From IMG/VR virus record IMGVR_UViG_3300005529_000007, positions 1 to 64,000 of that record: a stretch of 64,000 nt of DNA. One strand, given 5' to 3'. The translations under genes were made by a program, and so were the position numbers. The DNA comes from a virus. The notes below the pieces were generated by a model, which did no database searches, had not been told where the DNA came from, and saw nothing but the letters and a program-made list of their open reading frames with translations. Each line of letters opens with the position of its first letter. Position 1 is the stretch's first letter. Shown here piece after piece: positions 31,586 to 60,148 of the stretch.

Positions 31586-32782
31586 TTATACATTCGGTTG
31601 GATTTGGCTGTCAACCTGGGAGCAAGATGGGATCAAAATTGATCCCAATTTGTTTGCCATCTTCCTGCTGTGCTCTCGGCTGGCATGGGCATAGACCTTC
31701 AGCGTAATGCTGGGATCAGAATGCCCCAGGCGTGCGGCGACCGTGCGGATGTCCTCCCCTTCAGAGATGAGGGCCGTAGCATTCCCATGGCGAAAAGCAT
31801 GGAGCCCCGCCTTGGGGATACCTAATGTGGCAAGGAGTTTTTGAAGTTTGTCTCGCACCACATATCGGCTATCCCACGGTCTTCCATTGGCGGTTGCAAA
31901 CAGAAACGGCACCGAAGCGTCATGGGATCTGACGGCCAGGAAACGAAGAATATGTTCTGCAAGGGTGTCGGATATTTCAACAGAACGGATTCCACTTGCG
32001 CTTTTAGGAGTTTGAAGTCTTCCTCTCCATACTCCCTGCCGCACACGCAGACAACGGTTCGCATAGTCGAAGTCCTCCACACGAAGACCACACAGCTCAC
32101 CTGCACGTAGGCCCGTCTCCGCCGCGATCAGGAAGAACGTCTTGAACGGTTCCTGGGCTGCGGATATGATCTGTTGCATCTGCTCAGTTGTAAAGGAAGG
32201 ACGTTCAACAGGCGTTAGCCTGGGGAGCACAATGCCCTCTTTGACATTGTGGGAGACATATCCCCAGGCTTTCGCTGTCTTCCACGCGGTCCTGAAGGTG
32301 GCGTAGATATTTCTAACCGTCTTCGGGCGACACACGAGCGTGGAAATAAATTGTTGCACGAGGGCTGTGGAGATGTCCCCCATGTTCATCTTCCCGAAGA
32401 AGGGCATGATGTACTTGGTCATGTGCACCTTCTCCGAGTTCTGACTAGATGGCTTGTGCTGTGGGAGCACAGTCTTCATCCAGCGTTGTGCGAAATCGTT
32501 GTAAGACACGACCGCCTTGGGGCGGTAGCTAGTAGAGTTGATCTCCGCCAGCTTCGCTTCCAAGGCGCGTTGTGCTAGTCGTTTAGTAGGGAGTTCCTGT
32601 AGAGTCCCCAAGACCACGGACTTTTGCAAGCGGTGGGTGTTTGTAGATGCAGGGGGTGCACCACAACTCGCTCGATGTTCTGTGACAGGAGCAAGGACAT
32701 CCTCCCGCCATCTCCCTACCCACACTTTGTTTCGCTTGCCCCTCAAGAACAGTTGCCCCTTCTGATACCTTCTCCGGGCCAT
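31586..32782 (-). CDS. Tyrosine integrase
   Basis: The ATG at 32782 is chosen because AGGAGATAAAC lies just upstream. A longer frame to 32902 lacks this. 398 residues: an N-terminal AP2-like arm-binding region (RRRYQKGQLFLRGKR), core-binding domain (residues about 120-210) and catalytic domain with all key residues. These are Arg in TGLRAGELCGL, Lys in LQTPKSASG, H-x-x-R in HAFRHGNAT, His in LGHSDPSI and Tyr in LKVYAH. It integrates or excises phage DNA. Its first 200 bases overlap the C-terminal end of the DUF1599 gene. Confidence 0.92.
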   Translation of the reverse strand: MARRRYQKGQLFLRGKRNKVWVGRWREDVLAPVTEHRASCGAPPASTNTHRLQKSVVLGTLQELPTKRLAQRALEAKLAEINSTSYRPKAVVSYNDFAQRWMKTVLPQHKPSSQNSEKVHMTKYIMPFFGKMNMGDISTALVQQFISTLVCRPKTVRNIYATFRTAWKTAKAWGYVSHNVKEGIVLPRLTPVERPSFTTEQMQQIISAAQEPFKTFFLIAAETGLRAGELCGLRVEDFDYANRCLRVRQGVWRGRLQTPKSASGIRSVEISDTLAEHILRFLAVRSHDASVPFLFATANGRPWDSRYVVRDKLQKLLATLGIPKAGLHAFRHGNATALISEGEDIRTVAARLGHSDPSITLKVYAHASREHSRKMANKLGSILIPSCSQVDSQIQPNV

Positions 32783-33104
32783 GTTTATCTCCTGGCCCGT
32801 TGAAACTATTGCCAGGGGTATTGTACTCTCTTGGGTAGGCTGCATACAAGACTGCGTAGTTGATGATGTCGGCAATGGTGTCCTGGAGTCCTTCATCTTC
32901 AACCGCGAAGTGTCCCTTCTCCTCGTAAGATACTAGCCGTGCGATCTTGTCCGACATGCGGACAAGTATTCCGTAGGTGCCAAAGGCTCGGAAGTTGGCG
33001 AAGATGTCGCTGCTCCGTCCGTAGTCTTGGTTCTTCTTCTCCATGACGGCTCGCGCCTTCCTGGAAAGATCGGCGTGAAACGCCAGTAGCTCTTGTCTAT
33101 TCAT
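32583..33104 (-). CDS. DUF1599-type nucleotide-modification-associated protein with Cys-rich tail
   Basis: ATG start. Residues 1-95 contain EKKNQDYGRSSDIFANFR and DTIADIINYAVLYA, typical of the DUF1599 nucleotide-modification-associated domain, a MazG-like helical fold found in phages. The tail (residues 135-155) has C-P-C-S-C-H and C-T-P-C, a possible zinc site similar to one in the 61-residue protein at 42586. That tail overlaps the start of the integrase gene by 200 bases in a different frame. Both readings look coding. Confidence 0.7.
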   Translation of the reverse strand: MNRQELLAFHADLSRKARAVMEKKNQDYGRSSDIFANFRAFGTYGILVRMSDKIARLVSYEEKGHFAVEDEGLQDTIADIINYAVLYAAYPREYNTPGNSFNGPGDKHGPEKVSEGATVLEGQAKQSVGREMAGGCPCSCHRTSSELWCTPCIYKHPPLAKVRGLGDSTGTPY

Positions 33105-45436: not shown

Positions 45437-46537
45437 TCACAGTTGTGCCTTTCCTTTCCAACGTTCTCTGAAGTCAACTTCCGGGTCCGCCACCAGGGCC
45501 TTGTGTCCCTGGCTTAGGACCTTGTCCACAAGCCTCCGCGCATTGACATCCTTCTCCTTGAATAGCTCGAACCAGTTCACGAGCTGCTTCCAGGGGATGG
45601 TCGTTCGCTTGATGTGCTCTAGCGCAACCTGCGGCTCGGCTGCTGCCAGCTTAGCCGCAGTGAGGCATAAAAAAGCATTCCTGGGATCGTAGAGCCAGCT
45701 CGCCATGGTGCGGTACTCGGTGTGGAGATGCCACGAGGGGCGATAAGCAGGATCGTATTTAAGGTGCCGCTGGACCCGCACATCTCCATAGTGCCCGTAA
45801 TCCCCGGAAGATCGACGGGTCTGTGACTCATGATTCGGAAGAATGTCTAGCTGTTCCAATCGGGCGGTGATAGTATCCAGGGCCTTGACTCTCGCCTTGT
45901 GCTCATCTGTCCAGGTTTCTTCAACTAGCACCTGCTCAGGATTGTCCGGGTCACGCACGACACTGGTCTCGTGCACATATCCTTCCTTCAAGGGGGAGAT
46001 GTCCAGGTGCACGTGGCCTCCCAGGGTCACGGTCCTCCCCGCCAGGCGCGACACGGCCCCGGCCTTCCACTTGTTGCCCAGGTCCAGGGAGTCTGCCCTC
46101 ATCATTAGTTCCTTGAGTCTCTTAACCAAAGTAAAGGTCCCCTTCGCAGGCTGTGGCCGAAGCTCCGCCACGTACCCGCTATGGTCCCAACCGATCTGCC
46201 CCGCATGAGGCAGCTTGTGCGATAGATTCACGCCCTCTCCCGCAGCGTCAAAGACAACAAACTCAGGATCACAACCTACAAGAAATGAATTGACCACAAC
46301 TTCTTCAACCTCCGGTGAAGGTACATCGCCTTCACTTCTATAGTGTCGAGCGTACAAATTTTGGGACTGGAGGAGTATGCCCAAGGGGCGACTCTGGGAA
46401 AGCTGAACCTGGGCTAGTTGGTTCCCATACGACCCCATCAGTTGATTCGTATAGGCATTCCGCCCCTCTTCAAAGCCCTGCTGAAACGCCTGCATCCCTA
46501 GTCCAAGCAAATCCCCCAGCCCGCTAAACCCTCCCAT
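45437..46537 (-). CDS. COOH-NH2 amidoligase 1
   Basis: ATG overlapping the sigma-factor stop. 366 residues. After a 50-residue Gly/Gln-rich leader, the glutamine-synthetase-like amidoligase motifs appear in order: GCDPEF (88-93), YVAELRPQP (122-130), LGGHVHLD (173-179) and HTEYRT (272-277). These acidic and histidine residues would bind Mg-ATP. Such enzymes join a carboxyl to an amine and act in peptide tagging, cell-wall crosslinks or natural product synthesis. It shares its transcript with the ECF sigma factor. Two diverged copies are encoded at 52446 and 58709. Confidence 0.83.
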   Translation of the reverse strand: MGGFSGLGDLLGLGMQAFQQGFEEGRNAYTNQLMGSYGNQLAQVQLSQSRPLGILLQSQNLYARHYRSEGDVPSPEVEEVVVNSFLVGCDPEFVVFDAAGEGVNLSHKLPHAGQIGWDHSGYVAELRPQPAKGTFTLVKRLKELMMRADSLDLGNKWKAGAVSRLAGRTVTLGGHVHLDISPLKEGYVHETSVVRDPDNPEQVLVEETWTDEHKARVKALDTITARLEQLDILPNHESQTRRSSGDYGHYGDVRVQRHLKYDPAYRPSWHLHTEYRTMASWLYDPRNAFLCLTAAKLAAAEPQVALEHIKRTTIPWKQLVNWFELFKEKDVNARRLVDKVLSQGHKALVADPEVDFRERWKGKAQL

Positions 46538-47069
46538 CGCGCATCCTCTCTTCCAGCCTGCGCCAACGCGAGGTCACACAATCCAAGGTCTCGCCTGACT
46601 TCTCAGCAATCTCCGGGAGGGTCATACCCTCCAGCTTGCATCGAACTAAAAACATCTCCTCTTCTTTTAAGCCCTCGGTCAGCTTCTCCAGGGCGATCTC
46701 CGCCTCCAGGCTGTCCTCGAACATCCCCGCCCCCACGTCATCCGTGAGCTCCACCTGCTGCCTGCGCATCTTGTCGCGGATCGCAGTGCGGCACAGGTTG
46801 AGTACAATGGCATGGAACCAGGTGGAGAATTTGCTATCCCCCCGGAACTTGTCAGACATGTAAAGGGCTTTGGTAATGGCCTCGTCAGCGATCTCCTGAT
46901 CGCTTCGGCCTAGAGTGAGGACGCAGACACTTTCTGCGTGATAGCGCAGGGCCTTGAAGAGTTTCTCCAGCACTTGCTCGTCTTGCGTCTCGCGCCAGAG
47001 TTGAAACAGTTCGTTCTCATCGCCGCCACCAACCCCAGTGTTTGAGGTCGTAAAAGAACAAGTGGACAT
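46524..47069 (-). CDS. ECF-type RNA polymerase sigma factor
   Basis: ATG with GAGAGAGG upstream. 181 residues: region 2 (residues 30-110) contains FRGDSKFSTWFHAIVLN followed by the helix RTAIRDKMRR, and region 4 (130-178) contains EEEMFLVRCKLEGMTL then PEIAEKSGETLDCVTSRWR. These match two-domain ECF sigma factors that recognise GTC-type -10 elements. No anti-sigma gene is adjacent. The three 33-bp elements with GTCTAA are the expected targets. The gene ends overlapping amidoligase 1. Confidence 0.9.
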   Translation of the reverse strand: MSTCSFTTSNTGVGGGDENELFQLWRETQDEQVLEKLFKALRYHAESVCVLTLGRSDQEIADEAITKALYMSDKFRGDSKFSTWFHAIVLNLCRTAIRDKMRRQQVELTDDVGAGMFEDSLEAEIALEKLTEGLKEEEMFLVRCKLEGMTLPEIAEKSGETLDCVTSRWRRLEERMRDGRV

Positions 47070-47138: not shown

Positions 47139-47369
47139 TCATGCTGCTCTCCCTGCCTCGTGCTCCCGCTGCACCCACCACAAGGCCAACTCTACTCGAT
47201 TCGAGAGACCCGTCTTGTCATAGATGCAACAGACATAATTCTTTATTGTGTTCTCTGTGGTTCCGATAGCGTTGGCCACTTCCCGGTTTGTGTTTCCGTC
47301 TGCGACCAGGCGGACGACATCTCGTTCTCGGGGAGTGAGCTCACGCTTCCCTTCGTATCTTGTAGGCAC
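47139..47369 (-). CDS. LuxR-type HTH protein 2 (76 aa)
   Basis: GTG with GGAGGATCT upstream. The product is almost only a LuxR/GerE HTH domain: ELTPRERDVVRLVADGNTN, then REVANAIGTTENTIKNY, the recognition helix. It overlaps the other HTH gene by 127 bases in a different frame, so its ribosome binding site lies inside that gene. A DNA-binding regulator or co-regulator. Confidence 0.75.
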   Translation of the reverse strand: MPTRYEGKRELTPRERDVVRLVADGNTNREVANAIGTTENTIKNYVCCIYDKTGLSNRVELALWWVQREHEAGRAA

Positions 47370-47758
47370 AGATCCTCCTTGTAAATCAGGACAGCCAACT
47401 TCACGCGCTTGACCCCGGTGTCAATTCCATAACGGTCGTACATATTGTTCAGGTGCTGCTTGACTGAACGGTTTGCGATTCCCAACGTCTTTGCCATGTC
47501 TCGGGTCTCGTAACCCTGGAGAAGAAGCTCGACAATCTGCCGCTCGCGGGGGGTGAGGGTGTCCCGCATCTTGTCGCGTGGCATGGTCGCGGCCAGTACT
47601 TCACGGGCGAAGGCGGTTACTGTATTTACCATCTGCCGGACTTTGGCATCGTGAAACATTGGAAGTCCGTATCTATAGCTGTCGTAATTGCGGGCTATTT
47701 CGTCGAGCTTCCATACCAATTCAAGCGCTCGCTTCTCTAGATCGTCGCTCATCGCCAT
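47243..47758 (-). CDS. LuxR-type HTH protein 1 (171 aa)
   Basis: ATG after GGGGGAGATACTACG. An N-terminal helical domain (residues 1-60) is followed by a LuxR HTH: TLTPRERQIVELLLQ, TRDMAKTLGIANRSVKQHL (residues 65-125). Then comes a 50-residue polar tail that overlaps the second HTH gene. A -1 frameshift at the overlap would create a double-HTH protein, but the strong internal ribosome binding site argues for two genes. Confidence 0.75.
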   Translation of the reverse strand: MAMSDDLEKRALELVWKLDEIARNYDSYRYGLPMFHDAKVRQMVNTVTAFAREVLAATMPRDKMRDTLTPRERQIVELLLQGYETRDMAKTLGIANRSVKQHLNNMYDRYGIDTGVKRVKLAVLIYKEDLCLQDTKGSVSSLPENEMSSAWSQTETQTGKWPTLSEPQRTQ

Positions 47759-49697: not shown

Positions 49698-49892
49698 CTA
49701 ATCTACCAGTCCCTTGGTGAGTTCATACCGCAACTGCTCGGCCCTTCTCATGGCTTCTTCCCGAGGGTTGTACCAATCCCAATAGAGATTCCCAACCCTC
49801 ACCCAGCCACCGCGCCCATCTTCGGGCACTTCTACTTCAACCATTGCTCGGATGCGTCTCCGCAGCACCCTTGCGTCTACGGTATCCGCCAT
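49698..49892 (-). CDS. Small helical protein next to ATP-grasp gene (64 aa)
   Basis: ATG with GAGGTGGGTC upstream. It overlaps the ATP-grasp gene by 56 bases. A helical charged protein (RVLRRRIRAMVEVEV; NPREEAMRRAEQLRYELT). A start at the internal ATG at 49844 would avoid most of the overlap. As the gene after the ATP-grasp ligase, it could be a peptide substrate carrier. Confidence 0.5.
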   Translation of the reverse strand: MADTVDARVLRRRIRAMVEVEVPEDGRGGWVRVGNLYWDWYNPREEAMRRAEQLRYELTKGLVD

Positions 49893-50628
49893 TGACCCAC
49901 CTCACAATGTGCTCCGCAAGAGACGTGATGCCCTGCCGCCGATCTTGCACACCTGGGGCGGTGTTGACCTCCAGGACAAACATCCTATCGTCCATGCTGT
50001 GGATGATGTCCACGGCCCCGAAGTCCAGGTCCATCGCCTCGACCGCCGCTGACCCGAGGTCCTTCAGCGCTTGCGGTGCATTATCGTAAAATCTAAACGC
50101 AAAACCGTGTCCCCAGTTCCACCCGATGCCCGCCGTTCGTCCAACACCGTATCTTTCAGGGTACTGCATAACTTTCTCATACACTGCGATAGGTCTCCGG
50201 CGATACGCCCAGACTCGATACTCTCGTTGCCTCGGGATATACTGTACGAAATAATCACAAGCACCTCCTTGTGTGCGCCATGTGAACTCCACATCATTCT
50301 GGAGTATTGGCACGATGTCCTTCGCCTTCGAGTGCTTGAACTTGCGCCCTAAGATGGGGAAGGAAAGTGGCTGGCCATTCGTCCACCCGCCATTCGTGCT
50401 CCAGGTATTATGTGGAGGCACAAGAACTCCTCTGCTGTGCAGGCGCTGGAGTTCCTGGAATTTGTTTAGCCTGCCTGCATTGCCATTGAGCACGGGCACC
50501 GAAGCAGCCACGGGGACGCCATAAGAAACTATGGCTTCCCCCGGTGTGCCGATCTGTATCCCTTGCTCTTGTAGGAGCTGCCCCAACAGTCTCCCGGTGT
50601 CCCCTTTTACTGCGCGAAGTTCGATCAC
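49837..50628 (-). CDS. ATP-grasp carboxylate-amine ligase
   Basis: ATG start, 263 residues. An N-terminal Rossmann-like pre-ATP-grasp part includes VLNGNAGRLNKFQEL. The ATP-grasp core has FPILGRKFKHSKAKD, REYRVWAYRRRPIAVYEK (adenine and phosphate contacts) and DFGAVDIIHSMDD, then FVLEVNTAPGV, the Mg-binding E-x-N motif. It would join an acyl-phosphate to an amine, as in glutathione-, RimK- or YheCD-type enzymes. It sits behind the GNAT and GATase genes in one operon. Confidence 0.82.
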   Translation of the reverse strand: MIELRAVKGDTGRLLGQLLQEQGIQIGTPGEAIVSYGVPVAASVPVLNGNAGRLNKFQELQRLHSRGVLVPPHNTWSTNGGWTNGQPLSFPILGRKFKHSKAKDIVPILQNDVEFTWRTQGGACDYFVQYIPRQREYRVWAYRRRPIAVYEKVMQYPERYGVGRTAGIGWNWGHGFAFRFYDNAPQALKDLGSAAVEAMDLDFGAVDIIHSMDDRMFVLEVNTAPGVQDRRQGITSLAEHIVRWVNGGYRRRKGAAETHPSNG

Positions 50629-50637
50629 AAAGACTCC

Positions 50638-51099
50638 TTAAAGTTGTTTCGACCAGAACTCAACCACGTGTTTCTCCATGTAGTTTGAAGCAAAGCTCCC
50701 GGTCGTCTTCCATCCTTGTTTCAGTAGCAAGGTGCGCTCGACGATGTTGTCCTCACGTACTGTGGCAACGAGCACTTCTGCCCCTGCCTTTCGTGCGATC
50801 TCTTCTCGGTAGCTCGCCATGAGCGTGCCGATCCCACGCCCTCGTTGAAAGCGGCTGACACTCACCTCGTGCGACACCAGAATCAAGTCGTTCCCTGGCA
50901 TTGGAGCCAGGGCAAAGTTGCACAGACAGAAGCCATTACTTTCCCCTTCACGAACCATGATGCTGGCGTGAAAGTTGTCTCCTGCCGAGTTGGTGGTCAG
51001 CCTGAGATTCTCTGGCCTGATGTAAGTAAGCCTTGCGATGGTCCGCAAGGCTTCCTCGTTGAGTACCTCTTTCGTCTTTTCGTCGAGTGTGTAGATCAC
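50638..51099 (-). CDS. GNAT acyltransferase
   Basis: GTG or ATG start overlapping the amidotransferase stop (ATGA). 153 residues. The acyl-CoA motif is RFQRGRGIGTLMASYREE (residues about 82-99), then a beta-strand VATVREDN and C-terminal WKTTGSFASNYMEKHV. GNAT enzymes acylate amines. In amidoligase gene neighbourhoods they act on the same peptide or amine substrate, the inference made here. Confidence 0.82.
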   Translation of the reverse strand: MIYTLDEKTKEVLNEEALRTIARLTYIRPENLRLTTNSAGDNFHASIMVREGESNGFCLCNFALAPMPGNDLILVSHEVSVSRFQRGRGIGTLMASYREEIARKAGAEVLVATVREDNIVERTLLLKQGWKTTGSFASNYMEKHVVEFWSKQL

Positions 51100-52055
51100 G
51101 CCTTCAACTCCTTGACTGCGAGGAATGTATTACAACCAGTGCAAACCAGTTCCCAGAGGGGCTGGTTCTTCTGGCTGTGCGTAAGACTCACGTACTTTTT
51201 GCACCCCGGACACTCCACTACATCCAAGGTCTTCTCGTCGTAGTACCGTGTGCGATGACTACGATAGTTGTCGTGCAGCTTCCCATAGTCCGGGGCAGTG
51301 TAGAACTTCGCCACCCGGAACTCGTCATGCCACTCCAGCCCACGTTCCCCGAACATGTAGATCGAGTCGTTGTTCATGGTGATAAAGGCCAGGTCCGCCC
51401 GATTGGGCTGCATGAGCAACCCATGCCGCTCTACGAACGGCCTCATGGCATTATGTATCGCCTGCTTTTCACTACTCCACACCAGCAAGTTCGGCGTGCT
51501 CGCCAGCACGAGCGGGCTCCCGCTGCGTGCCAGGACCAGCTTGCCTGGATACGCATTGGCAATGGCTGCGATGGCCACGGAACCTGAGATCTTCCTCAAG
51601 GCCCGCAGACCCTTCATCGTAAAGCCCCCCTCATCGAGGATCGCCCGCAGGATGTCGCTGTCCACGTCTGCCTTCCGGTCCAGCGAAAGCTCCCGGAACA
51701 ACGTGTCATCGTTGTGAATCATGCCGTTGTGCACCACTGCCACGTTCCCGGCAAACACAGGATGATTATTGGCGTTGTCCTTCGGGTTGCCTTGCGTCGC
51801 TGCTCTTGTGTGCCCCAGGAAGATCTCGGTCTCTTCCCTCAGGTGAGCTGTAAGAAACTCCTTATACGCCCGGCTCCTCACGAAGTGATTCGCAGGCTCG
51901 TCCTGCTTGAGCACCTGGACTTCTTCGCCAGGATTTTGCAAGGCCATCCCCGTGGCGTCCAGCCCACGTCTCTCATTCGCGCAGAGAAGCGTGGTGATCT
52001 TCTCCTCGGTTATAGGTTCGTCGCCAAAGCGGCGGATGCCGCAGATTCCACACAT
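51096..52055 (-). CDS. Class-II glutamine amidotransferase domain protein
   Basis: The ATG at 52055 follows GAGGAGAAC. An earlier start would mask the catalytic Cys at position 2. It begins MCGICGIR, so Cys2 becomes the N-terminal nucleophile after Met removal. Then come CANERRGLDATG, GHTRAATQG, NNHPVFAGNVAVVHNG and DSDILR, the GATase-II (Ntn) landmarks. The C-terminus carries a zinc ribbon (CPGC...CTGC). It would release ammonia from glutamine for an amidation by the neighbouring ligases. No separate synthetase domain is present. Confidence 0.85.
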   Translation of the reverse strand: MCGICGIRRFGDEPITEEKITTLLCANERRGLDATGMALQNPGEEVQVLKQDEPANHFVRSRAYKEFLTAHLREETEIFLGHTRAATQGNPKDNANNHPVFAGNVAVVHNGMIHNDDTLFRELSLDRKADVDSDILRAILDEGGFTMKGLRALRKISGSVAIAAIANAYPGKLVLARSGSPLVLASTPNLLVWSSEKQAIHNAMRPFVERHGLLMQPNRADLAFITMNNDSIYMFGERGLEWHDEFRVAKFYTAPDYGKLHDNYRSHRTRYYDEKTLDVVECPGCKKYVSLTHSQKNQPLWELVCTGCNTFLAVKELKA

Positions 52056-52381
52056 GACTGTTCTCCTCGTCCGCTCCAGGCATATCCCTGGATTTCGGCT
52101 TTCTCTCGCTCGGATAGCTCTCCGAAAAACTTCCATTTGTACTGCTGCATCCAGGAAAGGTGCTTTGCCTTATTCTGGTGTTTGATAACCCACTTGCGAA
52201 ATCCGGTTACGTACATACTGCTTTTCCTTGTGTTGCAGAGAGCACAAGCCGGGACCAGGTTCTGTTGGTACTGATGTCTCGTCCAACCCCTGGGTAAGTA
52301 CACCCTCGGTACTTGGTGATCTCTGGTTGTGGCAGGTTGCCCACAATACCAGCAGGGTTTCCCCCTTACATAAGACTTCAT
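52010..52381 (-). CDS. HNH endonuclease (123 aa)
   Basis: The ATG at 52381 is preferred over an in-frame upstream start. It carries CWYCGQPATTRDHQVPR and ACALCNTRKSS, the two zinc-binding pairs and DH catalytic motif of an HNH nuclease. It lies between amidoligase 2 and the amidotransferase and overlaps the latter by 46 bases. Possibly a homing endonuclease that invaded the operon. Confidence 0.75.
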   Translation of the reverse strand: MKSYVRGKPCWYCGQPATTRDHQVPRVYLPRGWTRHQYQQNLVPACALCNTRKSSMYVTGFRKWVIKHQNKAKHLSWMQQYKWKFFGELSEREKAEIQGYAWSGRGEQSCVESAASAALATNL

Positions 52382-52401
52382 GGCGCGGTCCCCAAAGAAA
52401 A

Positions 52402-52427
52402 GGGGCAAGATGTACTATCCTCGCCCC
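52402..52427 (-). terminator. Intrinsic terminator after amidoligase 2
   Basis: GGGGC/GCCCC stem extended by GGAT/ATCT around AGTAC, followed on the minus strand by TTTTCTTT. It lies 20 bases beyond the amidoligase 2 stop and upstream of the HNH gene, so it separates the amidoligase 2 transcript from the GATase/GNAT/ATP-grasp operon. Confidence 0.6.
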
Positions 52428-52445
52428 CCAGAGTCGAAGCAGCTA

Positions 52446-53954
52446 CTACTCCAAGTCTTTGCTTGGGTATTCGTACAACACTTTGCCCTTGAATCTGACA
52501 GGAGCGGGAACATATTGGGATTTCCACTCCTTCAGACTGTCGCGGTGAACTTTTTTTATGTCCCAGATAGGCAACACTCCGTTGAGTAATGCCTTCTTCA
52601 TCTTGTGGAACCGCTCGCCTTCGCGCCAGTCGGCACCAATGGAGATGTGCTTTCCTCCATCTGCCTCGAAGGTCTTGACCGAAAACGGGAACCTGGTCTG
52701 CCAGCCAGAGGGCAGGTACTTCACCAGGCTCCTGGACAACATCAACGGATGCACGCCTCTTGTATGCCCTTGTATGGACATCTTCAATTCCTTGTGGTAG
52801 CAGATGTCCCAGATCATCTCGCCCAGGCCCTTGGCTTGGTGAGTATTGGCCGTAGCCAGCGCCAGGGCATAGCCATCCGGCAACACAGTCGGGTGCCAGG
52901 TAGCTGTCGGCGTCCTCGCAGGAATGGGCACGCCCGAAAAGAGATGGTCAAACATGTCCCGGACATCCTGCTCACTGGGAGCGATGCTCAAAGGCACAAC
53001 CTTCACGGGCGTCTTCTCTGTCGGGGTCGTGATCCCCCAGCGTCCCTTGAAGTCCCAGCCCACATGCCTCGGGAACCCGCCGCGCTTAATTAGGTACAGC
53101 GCCAGCAGAGCGTCATCGTCCGTGTCCTTGAAGTACGCCAGGAGGTTCCGCAACTTGGCCGCAAGTACCGTAGGATTAGTTCCGTTCCCCGATCTCGTCA
53201 CCAGCCCTGGGCAATGCACACACAGCTTCGCCAGGGTGATGCTGATAAAGGCCAGCGCTGGGCTGTCTAGCCAGCTCGGAAACGTGCGGTACTCATAGCC
53301 GTGGGTCTGTAGCCTAAAGTCCCCCGGCATCCCGTAATGCTGGCCCAGTCGATCCCCGCCTCGCCTCTCGGCCATCTCTCGCGTGGGATAGACGCCCATG
53401 CCAAGCAGATCCTCGGTGAGATTGTCCAGGGCACGGACCTCATCGGCTCTCGTGGGCCGCTTGCGTCCCATGTGCACATGCCCGCCAATCCCGTCACCAA
53501 AGACAAATGCCCCACAGCGCCATTGGTACGTCGTAATACCTTCCACTAAGGTGGACATCCACCTCAGGGTGCTCAGAATGCTCGCGCACACACGCAGCGC
53601 ACACCGGCTCGGGTGAGGCCGAATCTCTGCCAGTCGCCCGTTGTTGTCTGCGCCAAACGCTGGCCCTTGTTGCAAGCCCAGGTGATGTGCATCCACCCGA
53701 GAATCCTCATCTCTCGTCAGCCCACTGCTCACGAACACGAACTCCGGGTCAGCTCCCAGCTTGAAGCGATTCACATACCGCCTCTGCGGGCCGAACTCGG
53801 GCAACTTCTGGAGCCGTTTCAACCAGCTCTCTAGCTTCTGGTCGGAGACCGTGTAGCCCAACGGGAACGCACGGTGGATTCCCTCCGGCGCAGAGATCCC
53901 GTGGCTGATGGCCACCCGATAAAAGGCATCCTTGAGTTTCACAAGTTCGCTCAT
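52446..53954 (-). CDS. COOH-NH2 amidoligase 2 (502 aa)
   Basis: The ATG at 53954 overlaps the upstream stop as ATGA. It carries all amidoligase motifs: LGADPEF (66-72), RLAEIRPHP (107-115), IGGHVHMG (156-163) and GYEYRTFPSW (219-228). A 250-residue C-terminal region is absent from copy 1. It may recognise the amine or peptide substrate. It has the ATP-binding residues DPE, AEI and GGHVH. The nearby ATP-grasp, GNAT and GATase genes make a shared pathway likely. Confidence 0.85.
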   Translation of the reverse strand: MSELVKLKDAFYRVAISHGISAPEGIHRAFPLGYTVSDQKLESWLKRLQKLPEFGPQRRYVNRFKLGADPEFVFVSSGLTRDEDSRVDAHHLGLQQGPAFGADNNGRLAEIRPHPSRCALRVCASILSTLRWMSTLVEGITTYQWRCGAFVFGDGIGGHVHMGRKRPTRADEVRALDNLTEDLLGMGVYPTREMAERRGGDRLGQHYGMPGDFRLQTHGYEYRTFPSWLDSPALAFISITLAKLCVHCPGLVTRSGNGTNPTVLAAKLRNLLAYFKDTDDDALLALYLIKRGGFPRHVGWDFKGRWGITTPTEKTPVKVVPLSIAPSEQDVRDMFDHLFSGVPIPARTPTATWHPTVLPDGYALALATANTHQAKGLGEMIWDICYHKELKMSIQGHTRGVHPLMLSRSLVKYLPSGWQTRFPFSVKTFEADGGKHISIGADWREGERFHKMKKALLNGVLPIWDIKKVHRDSLKEWKSQYVPAPVRFKGKVLYEYPSKDLE

Positions 53955-54148
53955 AGTTCGGTCCTCGGCTCCAAGTGCACCAGCCCTCCACAAGAAGAAC
54001 AAATCACGTAGGGAAATGGCATCGAATTCACGGATGTTTCATGCACGCTGCCACACACGCTACAAGCTCCCCACATCCCTCCTACTTCTTCTGCGGCAGT
54101 AACCCCGTCCAGCTCGTAGATCTCCCCGTCTACATGTTGCTCAGCCAT
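53951..54148 (-). CDS. Zinc-ribbon protein (65 aa)
   Basis: The ATG at 54148 is preferred. A longer frame runs into the previous gene. The product has GACSVCGSVHET and ICSSCGGLV, a CxxC...CxxC zinc ribbon, after an acidic N-terminus. The stop is coupled to amidoligase 2 (ATGA), so it may be a partner or carrier of that enzyme. Confidence 0.55.
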   Translation of the reverse strand: MAEQHVDGEIYELDGVTAAEEVGGMWGACSVCGSVHETSVNSMPFPYVICSSCGGLVHLEPRTEL

Positions 54149-54621
54149 CTTTTGAACTCCCGTAACTGCTGTATGGTCAACTTGGCCATAGGCCCATAGA
54201 CTCTCTTTATTTGGTGTTCGTGACGAACTTTCTTGATCTGAAACGGCTCCCTCATCCAGGACAAGGACTGCAACCGCTGCCAAGGATGGTAGTAGTTCCA
54301 TAAGGTCTGGCTGGCTGCTGACACGGGCATATCCAGCCCCGCGATCCGCCCCCATGAGGCTGAGTTGGAGATAATGTTCTCCCGGTCGAACTCGTAGAGG
54401 TAAACGGTTTTGTCCTGCGAGATCCGTAACACTTTCTCCCAAAGCTGGCGCGTGGGCTTGCCTAGATAGGTAAACTGACGCTGTCTACCACTCCCTGCAA
54501 GCACCAGCACCCTAGTGGGATAGTTCCCAGGGAATGGCTTGGGCTTTGTGCCAGTCATGCTCATTCCCCGCAACTGCGCGAGCGCCATCTTCACTACGAT
54601 TTTCGGTGTAAACTTCTTCAT
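54130..54621 (-). CDS. Hypothetical basic protein (163 aa)
   Basis: ATG at 54621 chosen to overlap the upstream stop as ATGA. A start at 54690 is also open. It contains KFTPKIVVKMALAQLR, TVYLYEFDRENIISN and a C-terminal basic helical region (AKLTIQQLREFKRWLSNM). It is coupled to both neighbours in the operon of amidoligase 2. No family is recognised. Confidence 0.5.
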   Translation of the reverse strand: MKKFTPKIVVKMALAQLRGMSMTGTKPKPFPGNYPTRVLVLAGSGRQRQFTYLGKPTRQLWEKVLRISQDKTVYLYEFDRENIISNSASWGRIAGLDMPVSAASQTLWNYYHPWQRLQSLSWMREPFQIKKVRHEHQIKRVYGPMAKLTIQQLREFKRWLSNM

Positions 54622-54878
54622 GTTTTCGCCTTCTTTGCCGAAAGCTCCTTGAATGCCTGCCACAGCGTCCACACGGTCGTGGAGAAACACTGCACCCGCT
54701 TGATCTCGTTATTCCCGTTCCTGGTCCACACCCAATAGCTCGGACTCAATCCGTGCATTGGCCCTGGCTCGACGTAGATTCCGTGTCGTTCAAGCCAGAA
54801 CTGTTGAATAATGTTGAGTGACGAACCTGATGAAGTGTCATCTCCAGTGGCAGCCATCTGTCCATGTCGAACTTCCAT
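54618..54878 (-). CDS. Hypothetical protein (86 aa)
   Basis: The start is uncertain. The ATG at 54878 gives 86 residues, and ATGs further upstream lie deeper in the neighbouring gene. It contains IQQFWLERHGIYVEPGP and CFSTTVWTLWQAFKELSAKKA, a short alpha/beta pattern. It overlaps the upstream zinc-rich gene by more than 130 bases. Function unknown. Confidence 0.45.
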   Translation of the reverse strand: MEVRHGQMAATGDDTSSGSSLNIIQQFWLERHGIYVEPGPMHGLSPSYWVWTRNGNNEIKRVQCFSTTVWTLWQAFKELSAKKAKT

Positions 54879-55432
54879 CGCTCCTGACATGATCCTCCGC
54901 ACAGGGGAACTCCCCATTTCTGTTTCTTCGTATAGTCCTTGCAAACAACGCACTTGCCCTTTTCAAGGAGCTCCTTGTACGTATTGACGAGCAGCACGTT
55001 GCAGTTCCACCAGGATTTCTTGCTGTCGTGCTTGTGCAGGAATCTCTCTGCTCCGCCGTGGCATACCGTTCTACATGCCCGGCAGACGGAGAACGTCCCG
55101 TACTCTTGAGCCACCCCAATCCAGAACCGATATTCCCAGTTCTTCAGGTTCCCAGGCTTCGGGTTAAAGGCCGTCGTGACCTTCACGAAGCCCATCGGGG
55201 TGAACTTTTGCGGCGTACTCCTATTGCACCAGGTACAGATCCAGATCCCATTTCGCAAGATCTTGGCCGAGGAACCATACGGCAACTTGCACAACGGACA
55301 TCTATCGTCCGTGTCATATCGCCCTCGGGTCTTCTCCCAATGCGTGGCCTCCCTGGCCCTGACGGGCATCTGGGGCTGGCGTGCCCCGTAGGGATACACG
55401 ATGTTTCTGATTACCCAGAAGGGGACTTTCAT
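54746..55432 (-). CDS. Multi-zinc-finger protein (228 aa)
   Basis: ATG start. The protein has four or five Cys clusters: CPLCKLP, CTWCNR, CRACRTVC, CVVCKDYT and CGGSC, each spaced for a zinc site. Aromatic basic patches lie between (WEYRFWIGVAQEYGTF). It is probably a nucleic-acid-binding protein. It overlaps the 86-residue gene. No family is recognised. Confidence 0.55.
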   Translation of the reverse strand: MKVPFWVIRNIVYPYGARQPQMPVRAREATHWEKTRGRYDTDDRCPLCKLPYGSSAKILRNGIWICTWCNRSTPQKFTPMGFVKVTTAFNPKPGNLKNWEYRFWIGVAQEYGTFSVCRACRTVCHGGAERFLHKHDSKKSWWNCNVLLVNTYKELLEKGKCVVCKDYTKKQKWGVPLCGGSCQERWKFDMDRWLPLEMTLHQVRHSTLFNSSGLNDTESTSSQGQCTD

Positions 55433-55439
55433 GTCTCTC

Positions 55440-55781
55440 CTAGTTCACGAACGAAACTTCGATTCCGTTTTCAGCAAAAAGTCGAGTAATGTTTTTTTCC
55501 CGGTCAGCGTCATGCAGCGACGGGTCGTCATTCGTTGCCATTAGGTGGTCACCGACAAAAGAGCTGGAGAGCCCCTCGTCGTCGAAGAGAAAAGACATTT
55601 GTGTGGGACTATCCAACAAGTCCCGAGGCGAAACCACGCCTAGAATCTGATCCTCCCTCAACCCACACGCCAACGAGAAGAAGCCCAAGCAGCACATCTT
55701 CCTGTCAGATTTGCGCAAGAGATAGGACCTATGTCCTCCTTCTCCCCTCAACCACTGCTTGCGATCAATGACGAGTTTCAT
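55440..55781 (-). CDS. Conserved-type phage protein (113 aa)
   Basis: ATG start. It opens with KQWLRGEGGHRSYLLR, then KMCCLGFFSLACG, a pattern common in small phage proteins of unknown function, and continues with an acidic half ending in EVSFVN. It precedes the zinc-finger gene in the amidoligase 2 operon. Confidence 0.55.
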   Translation of the reverse strand: MKLVIDRKQWLRGEGGHRSYLLRKSDRKMCCLGFFSLACGLREDQILGVVSPRDLLDSPTQMSFLFDDEGLSSSFVGDHLMATNDDPSLHDADREKNITRLFAENGIEVSFVN

Positions 55782-55798
55782 AATGCTTTAGTTCCTTC

Positions 55799-55987
55799 CT
55801 ACGGACACATGTACTCGTATGCTTTGGTTTCCCGTTCTTCCCCACATTGAGCGCACACATCCATTTCGTATTGCCGAGTTCGTTGCTCGTCGGTACGCGG
55901 GTCATACGGGCCTAGCTTGGGGTGCGTTATGGTGCGATTCAAGCAGCACATCACCCATCTATGTAGACCGAACCTGCACCAGTTCAC
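55799..55987 (-). CDS. Small zinc-finger protein (62 aa)
   Basis: ATG start. It contains MNWCRFGLHRWVMC and MDVCAQCGEE, a C...H...CxxC type site, with a basic centre. It is coupled to the upstream gene through ATGA. Small proteins with this WCRFGLHRW opening are frequent in phages. The function is unknown. Confidence 0.55.
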   Translation of the reverse strand: MNWCRFGLHRWVMCCLNRTITHPKLGPYDPRTDEQRTRQYEMDVCAQCGEERETKAYEYMCP

Positions 55988-56265
55988 TGTTCCCTCAATT
56001 CCTCCACCGCCACAACCTGGCTGGTGTAAACCAATCTCCCTGCGGTCGCACCCAGCATCTTCCCCAACTCCCTGAGGCTCTCATCTCTCGCCTCCATCAC
56101 CATGCCGACGCGCTTGCCCACAACGGGCTCATCGCAAAGAATGAACGTCCCACTCTCGTCTCTCAACTCCCCGCTTTCAGTCGTCTTCTGGAGTCTCACC
56201 CACGTCTTAGCTGCGTGGTCAATTAGGTACTGGCTCCCTGTCTCAGTCGTTACGAGCTGTTTCAT
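55984..56265 (-). CDS. Hypothetical protein (93 aa)
   Basis: ATG start. Beta-rich front (GSQYLIDHAAKTWVRLQ; GTFILCDEPVVGKRV) followed by a helical end (REQ). It overlaps the small zinc-finger gene by four bases. A terminator lies upstream of this gene (56277-56331), so a promoter must lie in the short space between or readthrough occurs. Confidence 0.52.
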   Translation of the reverse strand: MKQLVTTETGSQYLIDHAAKTWVRLQKTTESGELRDESGTFILCDEPVVGKRVGMVMEARDESLRELGKMLGATAGRLVYTSQVVAVEELREQ

Positions 56266-56276
56266 GTGCCTCCCCC

Positions 56277-56331
56277 TAAAAAATTTAAGACCTGGGGAGA
56301 GGAGGCCTAAACACGCCCCTTCACCCAGGTC
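56277..56331 (-). terminator. Intrinsic terminator
   Basis: On the minus strand GACCTGGG pairs with CCCAGGTC (arms at 56289-56296 and 56324-56331) and is followed by TTAAATTTTTT. It terminates the transcript of the 56470 gene. The 130 bases between that gene's stop and this terminator hold only a weak 40-codon basic frame. Confidence 0.65.
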
Positions 56332-56469
56332 GTTTCACAGGGAGTTGAGCTTATCGTGCGCCAAGTGGCGAGCGGCAAGAAGGCCCCTCCTTGTCAAACT
56401 CCACCTGTCTCCCTGTATTGGCATAGGCCCACTTAGTGGACGCTGTCCAGGTCGCACTAGAACGCAGTG

Positions 56470-56895
56470 TTACCGCGAGGTCTTTTTTCTCCTCGCCTTG
56501 CGTCCGCTGCGATTGCTCGCAGATACTTTGCGTGCTGCCAACAGGGGCATGGTCTTCATGCCCTTGGCGAACATGGTAATGACGTTCCCGCTCCGCCCCT
56601 TGAAGGTGCCGAGTGCTACATAACCCGCCTTGACGGCGGCCTTCTGGGCAGCGAGCTGGTTGTCGTTCAACGTAATGAGCTTGCAAGGGGCGCTGTCTTC
56701 GGAATCCTCAATGGATGCAACGATGACCTTGATGGCCTCTTCTTCATTCGTGACCAGGTTGTCATCTTTCAGGCTCTCGATCTCGTCTTTGTCTTCAGAG
56801 ATCTGTTGTTTCAAATCCGCGTCGCTCGGGAAGGTGTAGATCACCTCCACCCCGCAACATCCTGGAAAATCGTCTCGATTGATTTCCGTCTCCAT
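56470..56895 (-). CDS. Hypothetical acidic protein with basic tail (141 aa)
   Basis: ATG behind GAAGAGGAGAAAT. The middle is acidic and helical (DLKQQISEDKDEIESLKDD) and the C-terminus strongly basic (SNRSGRKARRKKTSR), a plan seen in DNA-binding accessory proteins. The start overlaps a possible 60-residue frame. No family recognised. Confidence 0.55.
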   Translation of the reverse strand: METEINRDDFPGCCGVEVIYTFPSDADLKQQISEDKDEIESLKDDNLVTNEEEAIKVIVASIEDSEDSAPCKLITLNDNQLAAQKAAVKAGYVALGTFKGRSGNVITMFAKGMKTMPLLAARKVSASNRSGRKARRKKTSR

Positions 56896-56977
56896 ATTTC
56901 TCCTCTTCTTTGTGAATGTCTCCTCCCGGCAGAACCGTGAGGCCTACAAAACCGTGCTCTACATCCGCAGAAAGCAT
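56795..56977 (-). CDS. Possible small overlapping gene (60 aa)
   Basis: ATG at 56977 with AGGAGTGGGAAC upstream. The product (MLSADVEHGFVGLTVL, then DIHKEEEKYGDGN) overlaps the next gene's start by 101 bases. The good ribosome binding site makes it worth listing, but the overlap and composition leave it uncertain. Confidence 0.33.
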   Translation of the reverse strand: MLSADVEHGFVGLTVLPGGDIHKEEEKYGDGNQSRRFSRMLRGGGDLHLPERRGFETTDL

Positions 56978-56995
56978 GTTCCCACTCCTGTGCAT

Positions 56996-57021
56996 AAAAA
57001 AGGCCACTATTTCAAGTGGCC
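56996..57021 (-). terminator. Intrinsic terminator after the FnIII gene
   Basis: GGCCACT (57002-57008) pairs with AGTGGCC (57015-57021). On the minus strand the stem is followed by six T. It lies just beyond the stop of the exported fibronectin-like gene. Confidence 0.85.
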
Positions 57022-57043
57022 TTTATTCTGCGTAGGCGCTGGG

Positions 57044-57397
57044 CTACTTCGGCGCAGCCTGCAAGTTGGATGGAGGCGACGGGAGCACAGGTATCAGTAC
57101 CTGGACTTCTCCGTCACAGGCACTTTCCGCACCTCCTGTTCCGACATCCGAGACGTTGTAGAAGATCGTCTGGCCGTCAGTGAGGCCCACTGTGTCCACA
57201 TACTGAAGGGCGTTGATTCCCGTGGCGTAGGGCGTCGGGGAGCCATTGCAAACTCCCTTGGCCGTGCCCTTATAGATGTTGTACGTCACACCTGGTGTCG
57301 TGGAAGCGTTCCACGAGAGTGTGACGGAATGTTGTCCAGGGGTATTGGCAAACGCCATCCCTCCCAAAGCAAGTACAACAAGCAAGCGTTTAATCAT
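57044..57397 (-). CDS. Exported fibronectin type III protein (117 aa)
   Basis: ATG overlapping the C2H2 micro-gene stop as ATGA. The signal peptide RLLVVLALGGMAFANTP is followed by a single Fn3 domain: VTLSWNASTTPGVTYNIYKG, then YVDTVGLTDGQTIFYNVS and a Cys pair. The protein is probably displayed on or released from the host envelope, perhaps in adhesion or exclusion. Fn3 modules of this style are frequent in soil bacteria and their phages. Confidence 0.72.
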   Translation of the reverse strand: MIKRLLVVLALGGMAFANTPGQHSVTLSWNASTTPGVTYNIYKGTAKGVCNGSPTPYATGINALQYVDTVGLTDGQTIFYNVSDVGTGGAESACDGEVQVLIPVLPSPPSNLQAAPK

Positions 57398-57498
57398 TTC
57401 TTCCTCTTATTGTGGTCCTTGACATGATCCAACAACTTCTCCCAGCGCTTAAACTTCTTCTCGCAATGCCCGCAACGATGTAGTCTTTTCTTGGCCAC
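57394..57498 (-). CDS. C2H2 zinc-finger microprotein (34 aa)
   Basis: GTG with GGGGAGATGAG upstream, stop overlapping the next ATG. The sequence HRCGHCEKKFKRWEKLLD, then HVKDH, gives Cys-x2-Cys-x12-His-x3-His, the classical C2H2 finger with aromatic and Leu core residues at the correct spacing. Basic tails surround it. Such single fingers are rare in phages. It would bind DNA, RNA or protein. Confidence 0.6.
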   Translation of the reverse strand: MAKKRLHRCGHCEKKFKRWEKLLDHVKDHNKRKK

Positions 57499-57499
57499 C

Positions 57500-57787
57500 T
57501 CATCTCCCCTCGTGCACTGAGTAAGCCACCGCAGCACTCTCAGTGCCGATCAGTGCCCATTTGAAAATCTTGGCCGCTCGCTTATGCCCGTGCTTGTTCA
57601 GCTCATGCGTAGCGAGGATCTCCAGCCCCAGGTCGGCTGCACATGAGCCGTACCCAATCGCTGGTCCATGCGTAACAAATGGACGGGCTATGGGGTTTAT
57701 CTCCCGATAGCCCCCTCTGTCCAGGCGCTGCATTGTGAGCTGGCAATCTGTGGCCGTCAGGGCCATCAACAGGGCGAGTGTCTTCAT
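57500..57787 (-). CDS. DUF5658-like membrane protein (95 aa)
   Basis: ATG start. Hydrophobic N-terminus with Asp (LALLMALTATDCQLT), then REINPIARPF, a small-residue helix and a third segment (FKWALIGTESAAVAYSV). The D...E-x-NP pattern resembles DUF5658-type proteins and parallels the product at 2252. Function unknown. Confidence 0.55.
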   Translation of the reverse strand: MKTLALLMALTATDCQLTMQRLDRGGYREINPIARPFVTHGPAIGYGSCAADLGLEILATHELNKHGHKRAAKIFKWALIGTESAAVAYSVHEGR

Positions 57788-57996
57788 CGCTTGAATCCAA
57801 GAACTGTAAGGGCCTCTTGTATCTGGGCATCTCGCTTCGCCTTCGCTGCCTCAATGCGTTGTATTTCTTCTTCGCGGCACTTGGGGCAGAGGTAAGATAG
57901 AGAAGCGTAATCAGATGCCACATACTGCATCTTCACCCCATGCTTGCAGCAGTAGCCATTCCTAGCGAGCACATTGAGGGCTTCATCACGATTCAT
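57784..57996 (-). CDS. Zinc-binding protein (70 aa)
   Basis: ATG start. The sequence has GYCCKHGVKMQ, YLCPKCREEE, a C...CxxC zinc site, then a long helix (QRIEAAKAKRDAQIQEAL). The start lies 10 bases from a dispersed repeat copy (58006), again in place of a normal leader. Function unknown. Confidence 0.55.
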   Translation of the reverse strand: MNRDEALNVLARNGYCCKHGVKMQYVASDYASLSYLCPKCREEEIQRIEAAKAKRDAQIQEALTVLGFKR

Positions 57997-58005
57997 AAGT
58001 TCTCC

Positions 58006-58033
58006 CCACTACCCAAAAACGGGTCACACAGAC
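58006..58033 (+). repeat. Dispersed repeat copy 4
   Basis: CCACTACCCAAAAACGGGTC followed by ACACAGAC, the best match to the family consensus. It lies directly upstream of the minus-strand gene starting at 57996, in plus orientation. Confidence 0.6.
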
Positions 58034-58346
58034 CCAAGTTCCTTTTATCCCCGCGAACCCCGGCATCTCCAGAGCGTATGCAAATCCCCGCCCTATCCGT
58101 AAAGAACTTCTCCGACAAACTTTGTTCCTTGTTTAACGGGACGCCCGGAGTAAAGGGGTACTAATCGGTGATATAAGCTCCCCGATTTCCCCCACCCATA
58201 CGGTTTTCACCAAGGGCCTACCTACGTCGCCCACAGAGGGAACAAACTGATTGCCGTGCCCATCCAATCCAGACAGGAGACAAGATGTCCTGTTCTAGAG
58301 AAGCACAAAACGAGAGCGAGCTTATGATCGCCCACTCCCATACTTC

Positions 58347-58420
58347 CCCCGGCCCGTCCGAGCCGCGAACCTGGACTCCTTGCCTCGAAAAGCAAGGCCC
58401 GTGTCGCTCGGTTGCCGGGG
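58347..58420. ncRNA. Nested stem structure, candidate structured RNA
   Basis: A 74-base element folds as three nested perfect stems: CCCCGGC/GCCGGGG (58347-58353 with 58414-58420), CCGAGC/GCTCGG and CCTTGC/GCAAGG around CTCGAAAA. The length matches a tRNA, but the T-arm and a 7-base anticodon loop are missing on both strands, so it is not a tRNA. Strand and function are unknown. Confidence 0.4.
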
Positions 58421-58433
58421 TTCTGCGAAGAAC

Positions 58434-58751
58434 TTAATAGAAAATTCCATTCCAATTCTGATTGTCGTAATACGTTTCATACTGCGGCTTGGGATCTGTC
58501 TTGACCTTCACCAGGACATCCTCACAGCTTTTCCTGCCGCAACAGGGCACATGGCCCTTGGCCAAATGAAACGCAGGTCTGGCACAGCCCCGGCAGATAA
58601 ACCTTGGCAATTTCCCCCTGCCTTTACAGGTCACACAAATGGGATCTTGCTTCTGGTATCTCGGGTCCACTCGTGTCCCAAGCCCTCTACAAATGGGACA
58701 CACGTCCACTACGATTTCTTTGCCAGTCGCTTGCTCGCTAGAATTCCCCAT
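58434..58751 (-). CDS. DnaJ-like zinc-finger protein (105 aa)
   Basis: ATG at 58751 overlaps the amidoligase 3 gene in a different frame. It contains CPICRGLGTRV, CVTCKGRGKLP, ICRGC and CCGRKSC, the C-x2-C-x-G-x-G pattern of DnaJ zinc centres. It may act as a chaperone-like or RNA-binding partner of amidoligase 3, whose gene is directly upstream. Confidence 0.65.
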   Translation of the reverse strand: MGNSSEQATGKEIVVDVCPICRGLGTRVDPRYQKQDPICVTCKGRGKLPRFICRGCARPAFHLAKGHVPCCGRKSCEDVLVKVKTDPKPQYETYYDNQNWNGIFY

Positions 58752-60148
58752 TGACCCTCGTTCTCCACAAGGCGCTGGTCCCAATAAACCCTGCGCCCGT
58801 TTTTATCCACCTTCCCAAACATATCCAGCTTCCAATTCCCCTCGATGTCCGTGGGATCAGGAATGACATGCTCAACACCCTTGAGAATAGTTTCCATTGC
58901 CAACGTGATCGTTGGGGAGGCAACACCCTCCGCGTGCGGGAAATTTGTGTACGTCAACAGCGCCGCGAGCACCTTGGAATTAGTCGCAATCATCTCGCGG
59001 GCCGCAGCCACGTCGCACGTGTTAATCACCTTCCGCACATCCGCCGCATTGGCCTTCCAGAGCAAATCACACAGGCCAAGCCGCCCGAAGTTCAGGGCCA
59101 CACGGAACAGCTCCATTGTCAAGTGACCAATCGCCGGATGGCACAACCAGAAGTTGCTCAACGTGCGGTATTCAATGCCATACGCAGGCAATCTATACTC
59201 GCCCGCGAGACCGTAGAATCTCCGCCGAATTGGATTGTCGATATTGGCAGCCATGCTGACCGCGCATACACCCAGGACCGCATCCAACGAACGCACGGTC
59301 CGCGACACAATATCGTCATTCGTCGGGATCACACCATAGGTCAAATGTCCACCCGCGAATCTGTACTGCAACCGCCTGGGCTCCGCGACTTCCTGCCCCT
59401 TGTCGCCATAGATATTCCGGCTGGGCGTGCATCCCAGGATCACGTACTTCTCGTCGAGCTCCGCGAGCGTAGATAGGGGAATCTCAACCACATTCTCCAA
59501 GGACAACTTCGCATTTGCGTGCTTCTTCCGCGCCGCACTCAATGTGCGATACAAGCCCTCACGTATGTTGTACGTGACTGATTCCAGGCAATTTGCGGGA
59601 TTCACATTGAACTCCGCCTGGAAGCCATCCCAAAATGCACGCGCACCCACGCCCACACCGTCAGGAGCTCCGCCTTCCTGCATTTTGGCCACACGCTTCT
59701 GGAACTCCTGCTGACTCCCCTCATTACTCTCCAGGAAATCAAACGCATTGAGCACCTGGTCGCCCACCTTCACGAAGATCTCCGGGTCGCTTCCTGTGGT
59801 CCAGGCCGTGCCTTTCCGCATGACATACTTCCCATTCAAAAGCGAATCTGCCAGCCTGCTCTGCAATTCCTTGGTCCGCTCTTCAGGGAGCACCTTCCAG
59901 GGCATAGTTGCCGGAATCTTGTTTGGCACAGTCATCGCAGCAATCGTGTTGTTGTGGCCGTGCAACACGTGCAATTCCGGCCACACATAGGACGTGTTTA
60001 TTTTGCCCGTGTGATCGTAGGTGCCCTCTGCACCCATAACCAGGGCCTCACGTCCCCCGAAGTATCCCGCGCCCCACTCGGGCGGGACCTCCACCGCAGT
60101 ACCTGGGGGAATATCCTTAAATGGAATCTTGTTGCTCATGGTACTCAA
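58709..60148 (-). CDS. COOH-NH2 amidoligase 3 (479 aa)
   Basis: A TTG at 60148 overlaps the upstream stop as TTGA. An ATG nine bases later is an alternative. A 115-residue extension precedes the core. The motifs are TTGSDPEIFV (117-126), GFQAEFNVNP (175-184), AGGHLTYG (265-272) and YGIEYRTLSNFW (323-334). Compared with copies 1 and 2, the second His of GGHVH is Thr, so metal binding may differ. It is the distal gene of an operon whose leader has a long structured RNA and a terminator. Confidence 0.82.
   Translation of the reverse strand: MSTMSNKIPFKDIPPGTAVEVPPEWGAGYFGGREALVMGAEGTYDHTGKINTSYVWPELHVLHGHNNTIAAMTVPNKIPATMPWKVLPEERTKELQSRLADSLLNGKYVMRKGTAWTTGSDPEIFVKVGDQVLNAFDFLESNEGSQQEFQKRVAKMQEGGAPDGVGVGARAFWDGFQAEFNVNPANCLESVTYNIREGLYRTLSAARKKHANAKLSLENVVEIPLSTLAELDEKYVILGCTPSRNIYGDKGQEVAEPRRLQYRFAGGHLTYGVIPTNDDIVSRTVRSLDAVLGVCAVSMAANIDNPIRRRFYGLAGEYRLPAYGIEYRTLSNFWLCHPAIGHLTMELFRVALNFGRLGLCDLLWKANAADVRKVINTCDVAAAREMIATNSKVLAALLTYTNFPHAEGVASPTITLAMETILKGVEHVIPDPTDIEGNWKLDMFGKVDKNGRRVYWDQRLVENEGQWGILASKRLAKKS

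Follow-up and report, generated by a model that had tools for sequence, protein, structure and literature searches.

The locus described here raises the question of what a phage does with three ligases of a single family, PF14395 (phiEco32-like COOH-NH2 ligase), encoded alongside an ATP-grasp ligase, a GNAT acetyltransferase and a class-II glutaminase. It lies in a window of 64,000 nt, the whole stretch of DNA that was analysed, taken from an uncultured virus contig of 67,168 bases. Matches in the phage include a portal/head-tail adaptor and an internal virion protein of podovirus type, a major head protein, a DNA polymerase and integrases; a search for a close cultured relative found none. 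Gene sets of the phiEco32/LUZ24/RIO-1 type have been named the peptidoglycan modification cassette, with a block to superinfection proposed as their effect (PMC5498523; PMC10580990; PMC6256558). As cited in PMC5498523, the cassette proposal for phiEco32, LUZ24, tf, PA11, RIO-1, HP1 and CW02 is that of Iyer 2009 and Hardies 2013. The amidoligase cassette is widespread among phages and, in one studied infection, that of phage HP1, it is expressed immediately, earliest of all (PMC7082346). No assay or product for the window's cassette or a related one is reported in the literature searched. A sequence-only reading of the window had described a peptide-modification system, a prediction likewise published for the related cassette (PMC5498523).

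The three ligases, here named AL1, AL2 and AL3, were described in that reading as amidoligases of 366, 502 and 479 residues; all score above the Pfam gathering cut-off for PF14395 (25 bits) and belong to one family (Table 1). A PF14395 search of the whole record returned exactly these three genes, and all three open reading frames are intact. AL2 measures 518 aa from its TTG start and 502 aa from the ATG start at 53954. The range 49837-60148, previously taken to hold all three copies, contains AL2 and AL3, but AL1 lies outside it. AL3 matches phrog_3815, ‘COOH.NH2 ligase’, at 1.7e-31 and, used alone as a query, finds matches in 303 isolated phage records, while AL1 and AL2 give no tblastn match in isolated phages.

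Table 1. Features of the ligase cassette and its surroundings, in window positions
Feature	Position	Strand	Length	Profile match	Occurrence
AL1, PF14395 ligase, variable N-terminal extension of ~80 aa	45437..46537	-	366 aa	59.4 bits	
Sigma factor	46524..47069	-		Sigma70_r2 25.4 bits; phrog_1740 3.9e-9	
RimK-like ATP-grasp ligase, LEVN motif	49837..50628	-		phrog_2599 5.6e-17	
GNAT acetyltransferase	50638..51099	-		PF00583 27.5 bits (cut-off 20.7)	
Class-II glutaminase, N-terminal Cys	51096..52055	-		GATase_6 63.8 bits	
HNH endonuclease, between AL2 and glutaminase	52010..52408	-		PF01844 22.2 bits (cut-off 21.4); phrog_2118 6.3e-11	
AL2, PF14395 ligase, conserved C-terminal extension	52446..54002	-		80 bits	
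p186, conserved protein, FPGxxPTR...GKP...EFD	54130..54690	-			15/15 trio contigs
p228, Cys-rich conserved protein, WGVPxC motif	54746..55432	-			24/24 lineage contigs
Zn116, Cys-rich, CxxC motifs, weak DnaJ-type, after AL3	58434..58784	-			24/24 lineage contigs
AL3, PF14395 ligase, phrog_3815 / phiEco32-LUZ24 type	58709..60148	-	479 aa	39.1 bits	

Relatives were collected from IMG/VR with AL1, AL2 and AL3 as queries and then searched for PF14395; the contigs compared are metagenomic and possibly incomplete. Fifteen contigs, that of the window included, carry the order AL3, Zn116, p228, p186, AL2, class-II glutaminase, ATP-grasp and AL1. In these trio contigs the three ligases share one strand, the glutaminase and ATP-grasp genes fall between AL2 and AL1, and the ligases are only ~35-51% identical to those of the window. 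The differing extensions of the three copies, which had been noted as unusual for one phage, are present but are a property of the phage lineage as a whole. Nine further contigs hold AL3 and AL2 only, among them a fragment (G002) cut inside the glutaminase gene. A capsid protein is common to 20/29 records searched, at 58-91% identity, and the DNA polymerase to most of those 20, so that the contigs represent one phage family in which the cassette is a core gene set.

On a tree of the ligase domain, built by a quick method with SH-aLRT support only, the AL3 clade (support 99) includes the phiEco32-like and LUZ24-like copies, the AL2 clade likewise has support of 99, the AL1 clade of the trio contigs has 95, and AL1 and AL2 form sister clades (96). 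As judged from ligase-domain sequence, AL1, AL2 and AL3 are three ancient paralogs; the profile search and phylogeny that had been suggested as a check yielded one Pfam family and three supported clades. Eight contigs without AL1 form a single group inside the AL2 clade (97), adjoining an AL1-bearing contig, a placement that fits one loss of the gene. Other PF14395 triples, with members outside the AL1 and AL2 clades, occur in two larger phages (G009 and G012) and in G030, so multi-ligase sets either arose more than once or date back further.

Sequence searches at an E-value of 1 match the ligases to no PDB chain, and their fold was approached through AlphaFold2 models of AL2 (pLDDT 82.6) and AL3 (pLDDT 83.7). 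Both match glutamate-cysteine ligase, YbdK, glutamine synthetase and PafA/Dop; the best PDB matches of AL2 are YbdK-type ligases, glutamine synthetase and PafA, while AL3 shows the glutamine synthetase/glutamate-cysteine ligase fold. The best E-values are modest (6.6e-4 and 3.7e-5) and the Foldseek TM-scores, normalised by query length, are low (0.25-0.39), so that the models identify the class of fold but do not allow substrate pockets to be compared. On these models AL2 and AL3 are predicted to have the glutamine-synthetase/gamma-glutamyl-ligase fold. AL1 shares its PF14395 family and its side of the tree with the modelled AL2. Fold class and motif order are alike in the phage ligases and in glutamate-cysteine ligase, YbdK, glutamine synthetase and PafA, whereas the phage ligases carry extra domains and lack a PDB sequence match. 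Two outcomes had been named earlier as refuting the sequence-only reading, namely profile searches that assign the proteins to different folds and a structure prediction lacking the ATP-binding residues. As far as these checks reach, both favour the reading: the three proteins share a Pfam family, the AL2 and AL3 models share a fold, and all three paralog clades retain the ordered motifs DPE, E, GGHxH and EYR.

AL1 and AL2 of the window keep every motif. AL3 has Thr270 in place of the second His of GGHxH (GGHLT), a change that the sequence-only reading had pointed out and which is real; it occurs in the window's copy alone (1/36, with His in 35/36), and its codon, ACC, differs from any His codon by more than one base. 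By analogy, the GGHxH pair would be the HxH pair of glutamine synthetase. AL3 also has an additional N-terminal stretch of ~115 aa. The Thr, together with an AL3 match to the Pfam profile that begins only at position 94, could indicate that some of the three ligases are non-catalytic scaffolds or regulators, the window's AL3 being the candidate. Such a role is quite improbable, as AL3 keeps its other motif residues (E123, E179, H268, E326, R328) and an intact frame, and the motifs of AL1 and AL2 are complete.

Comparison with cultured phages places the set close to the known cassette. Seven cultured phages from the AL3 search each carry a single PF14395 gene, and phiEco32-like, LUZ24-like, Vibrio, Aeromonas, Pantoea and Klebsiella phages combine an AL3-type ligase with PF12224 (Amidoligase_2), a glutaminase and an ATP-grasp protein. 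PF12224 is present in 7/7 of the cultured phages examined and gamma-glutamyl cyclotransferase in 5/7 by the profile used. The window's set resembles the phiEco32/LUZ24/RIO-1 cassette in its AL3-type PF14395 ligase, its RimK-like ATP-grasp and its position as an early-gene module, in having a second ligase immediately ahead of the class-II glutaminase, and in the cyclotransferase carried by over half of its relatives (13/22 lineage contigs). It differs in that PF12224 has no match in the window's contig, AL2 occupying the PF12224 position by the glutaminase; in the short glutaminase (~320 aa); in the lack of a cyclotransferase in the window's contig; and in the addition of AL1, Zn116, p228 and p186. 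Two metagenomic phages with a related AL3 (G005 and G007) retain PF12224. That AL2 might itself be a diverged PF12224 protein was rejected, the profile comparison not being significant. By this feature comparison the set is predicted to work like the known cassette, as a variant of it rather than a plain member. The lineage thereby shows a swappable part (AL2 for PF12224), parts retained throughout (AL3, a second ligase, the glutaminase and the ATP-grasp) and a travelling pair (AL1 with p186), a pattern of concrete gene sets that may help to identify the substrate.

The explanation favoured here, with a probability of roughly 0.4, is that the set is a divergent phage peptidoglycan modification cassette, rebuilt around three PF14395 ligases and acting on a host envelope peptide. 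The three glutamine-synthetase-fold ligases and the one ATP-grasp ligase would use ATP to activate carboxylates for coupling to amines, the class-II glutaminase would supply ammonia and the GNAT would cap amines; jointly they would give a peptide an amide or gamma-glutamyl modification at an early stage of infection. The chemistry is the firmer part: ATP-driven formation of amides, probably gamma-glutamyl, between Glu-type acids and ammonia or amines is quite likely, given fold relatives that include known gamma-carboxylate ligases, the common cyclotransferase and a glutaminase without a synthase domain. The substrate and benefit are more tentative; the most likely target would be a host envelope peptide, for example a soluble cell-wall precursor, and the phage may profit by excluding later phages or by controlling the wall during infection. 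Some bacterial relatives of AL1 and AL2 adjoin cotE or YheC/D ATP-grasps, an envelope or spore-coat setting that, by analogy, leans towards envelope peptides. PF14395 ligases of Bacillota (Cohnella, Paenibacillus and a Symbiobacterium MAG) belong to the same Pfam family and to the AL1/AL2 side of the tree, and the Symbiobacterium locus has ATP-grasp neighbours, as in the phage cassette; these are, however, cellular genes with one PF14395 copy per locus and no glutaminase among the neighbours scanned. Against the envelope-peptide view stand the Cys-rich conserved proteins, for which no evident function in wall chemistry suggests itself, and the window's want of a cyclotransferase.

The same enzymes could instead be making a small molecule in free form, namely a gamma-glutamyl or peptide metabolite that acts on the host, on rival phages or on host defences. 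Successive ligases, an acetyltransferase and the relatives' gamma-glutamyl cyclotransferase resemble peptide-metabolite biosynthesis, and linked ligases often act in succession (PMC4431377), but no transporter, carrier protein or precursor peptide was found in the cassette, and this alternative is considered unlikely.

The accessory enzymes otherwise bear out what had been read from the sequence. The glutaminase and GNAT exceed their Pfam cut-offs, and the ATP-grasp ligase is recognised by its phrog_2599 match, though it falls slightly below the Pfam RimK cut-off (19.1 vs 21 bits); it is conserved both in the lineage and in the known cassettes. The best start of the glutaminase is the ATG at 52055, preceded by a GAGGAG ribosome site and giving MCGICG, and its C-terminus carries Zn-ribbon-like CxxC pairs. 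GNATs occur in many lineage cassettes at varying positions.

AL1 and p186 are separated by several kb, yet both are present (15 contigs) or both missing (8), which suggests a shared job; as the eight contigs form one clade, the coupling counts as one event. The fragment G002 also has p186, which is found in 0/8 complete cassettes without AL1, and Zn116, p228 and p186 are absent from 7/7 other metagenomic cassette loci tested. These distributions bear on a reading in which the enzymes add amino acids or ammonia to protein side chains or C-termini, much as RimK or PafA do; the target would be the phage's p186, Zn116 or p228, or else a protein of the host (ribosome, RNA polymerase). The phrog_2599 family is labelled ‘ribosomal protein S6 glutaminyl transferase’, the fold matches include PafA and Dop, p186 occurs exactly where AL1 does, and no lineage cassette lacks Zn116 or p228. 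Against this, Zn116 and p228 show no conservation at their C-termini, known cassettes without the three small proteins share the core enzymes, and the AL1-p186 coupling is that single event; protein modification is possible but doubtful. A narrower proposal, that the envelope-peptide cassette gained AL1 by an ancient duplication shared with AL2 as a dedicated ligase modifying or partnering the phage's own p186, a counterpart of PafA-type protein modification, is speculative and improbable. The idea that p228, p186 or Zn116 are counterparts of the phiEco32-type gp89 was rejected for lack of similarity. Zn116 scores 20.4 bits against DnaJ_CXXCXGXG, below the family cut-off.

The suggestion that the substrate might be a small peptide made by the phage found no backing. 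When 2032 short ORFs from the cassettes were scanned, the Zn116 family and one other small family were all that emerged, and a hidden ribosomal peptide was rejected as substrate. The other small family resembles alternate-frame ORFs. A Pup-type tag (a short ORF with a conserved C-terminal acceptor) was looked for in the cassette and is absent.

The minus strand of the cassette is shared with the DNA polymerase, primase, Sak4 and exonuclease genes. This arrangement, with Cys-rich proteins that could bind nucleic acid, would suit attachment of amino acids or amides to DNA bases. Such a role is very improbable: a thymidylate synthase relative occurs in 0/11 lineage contigs, on which ground DNA hypermodification was rejected, and no deazaguanine gene is among the annotated window proteins. 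In most trio contigs the sigma factor is immediately upstream of AL1, and in the window it lies, with the glutaminase, GNAT and RimK-like ATP-grasp, between AL2 and AL1. A promoter scan did no better than on shuffled sequence, and a terminator scan was only slightly above it.

Conservation of the ligases (38-51%) is far below that of the capsid protein (91% in the nearest capsid match). Fast ligase evolution as the sign of an arms race was rejected; DNA polymerase (65%) and exonuclease (42%) diverge too, so the divergence is not specific to the ligases. The HNH endonuclease, which has no relatives in the other contigs of the first comparison, is probably a mobile insertion.

Two tyrosine recombinase genes of the window are arranged tail-to-tail, which hints that the phage is temperate or that this is a mobile insert. 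Of the 22 contigs of the lineage sharing the cassette, 17 have integrase-like matches, many of them weak. Among the marker genes compared across these records, the capsid gene is seemingly in pieces in G013 and G026. In-frame stops interrupt the G026 capsid and, in both G001 and G020, the match to DNA polymerase. Such interruptions may reflect an intron, an insert or a sequence error.

Outside this lineage, the phages G030 (L143), G009 (L053) and G012 (L056/L057) each carry three PF14395 ligases accompanied by a glutaminase and an ATP-grasp. PF14395-type genes are also found in Bacillota (L121, L123 and L124), where among these loci the gene adjoins cotE in Cohnella and Paenibacillus, and two YheC/D ATP-grasps in a Symbiobacterium MAG.

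Within the window, the sigma factor gene adjoins a pair of overlapping LuxR-type ORFs, and a histidine phosphatase gene is surrounded by virion genes.

Coordinates of additional features of the window
Feature	Position	Strand	Profile match
Histidine phosphatase	17285-17899	+	PF00300, 78 bits
Tyrosine recombinase, integrase family	30012-30878	+	
Tyrosine recombinase, integrase family	31586-32902	-	
Two LuxR-type helix-turn-helix ORFs, overlapping	47139-47758	-	
ORF within this pair	47243-47758	-	GerE, 43.4 bits
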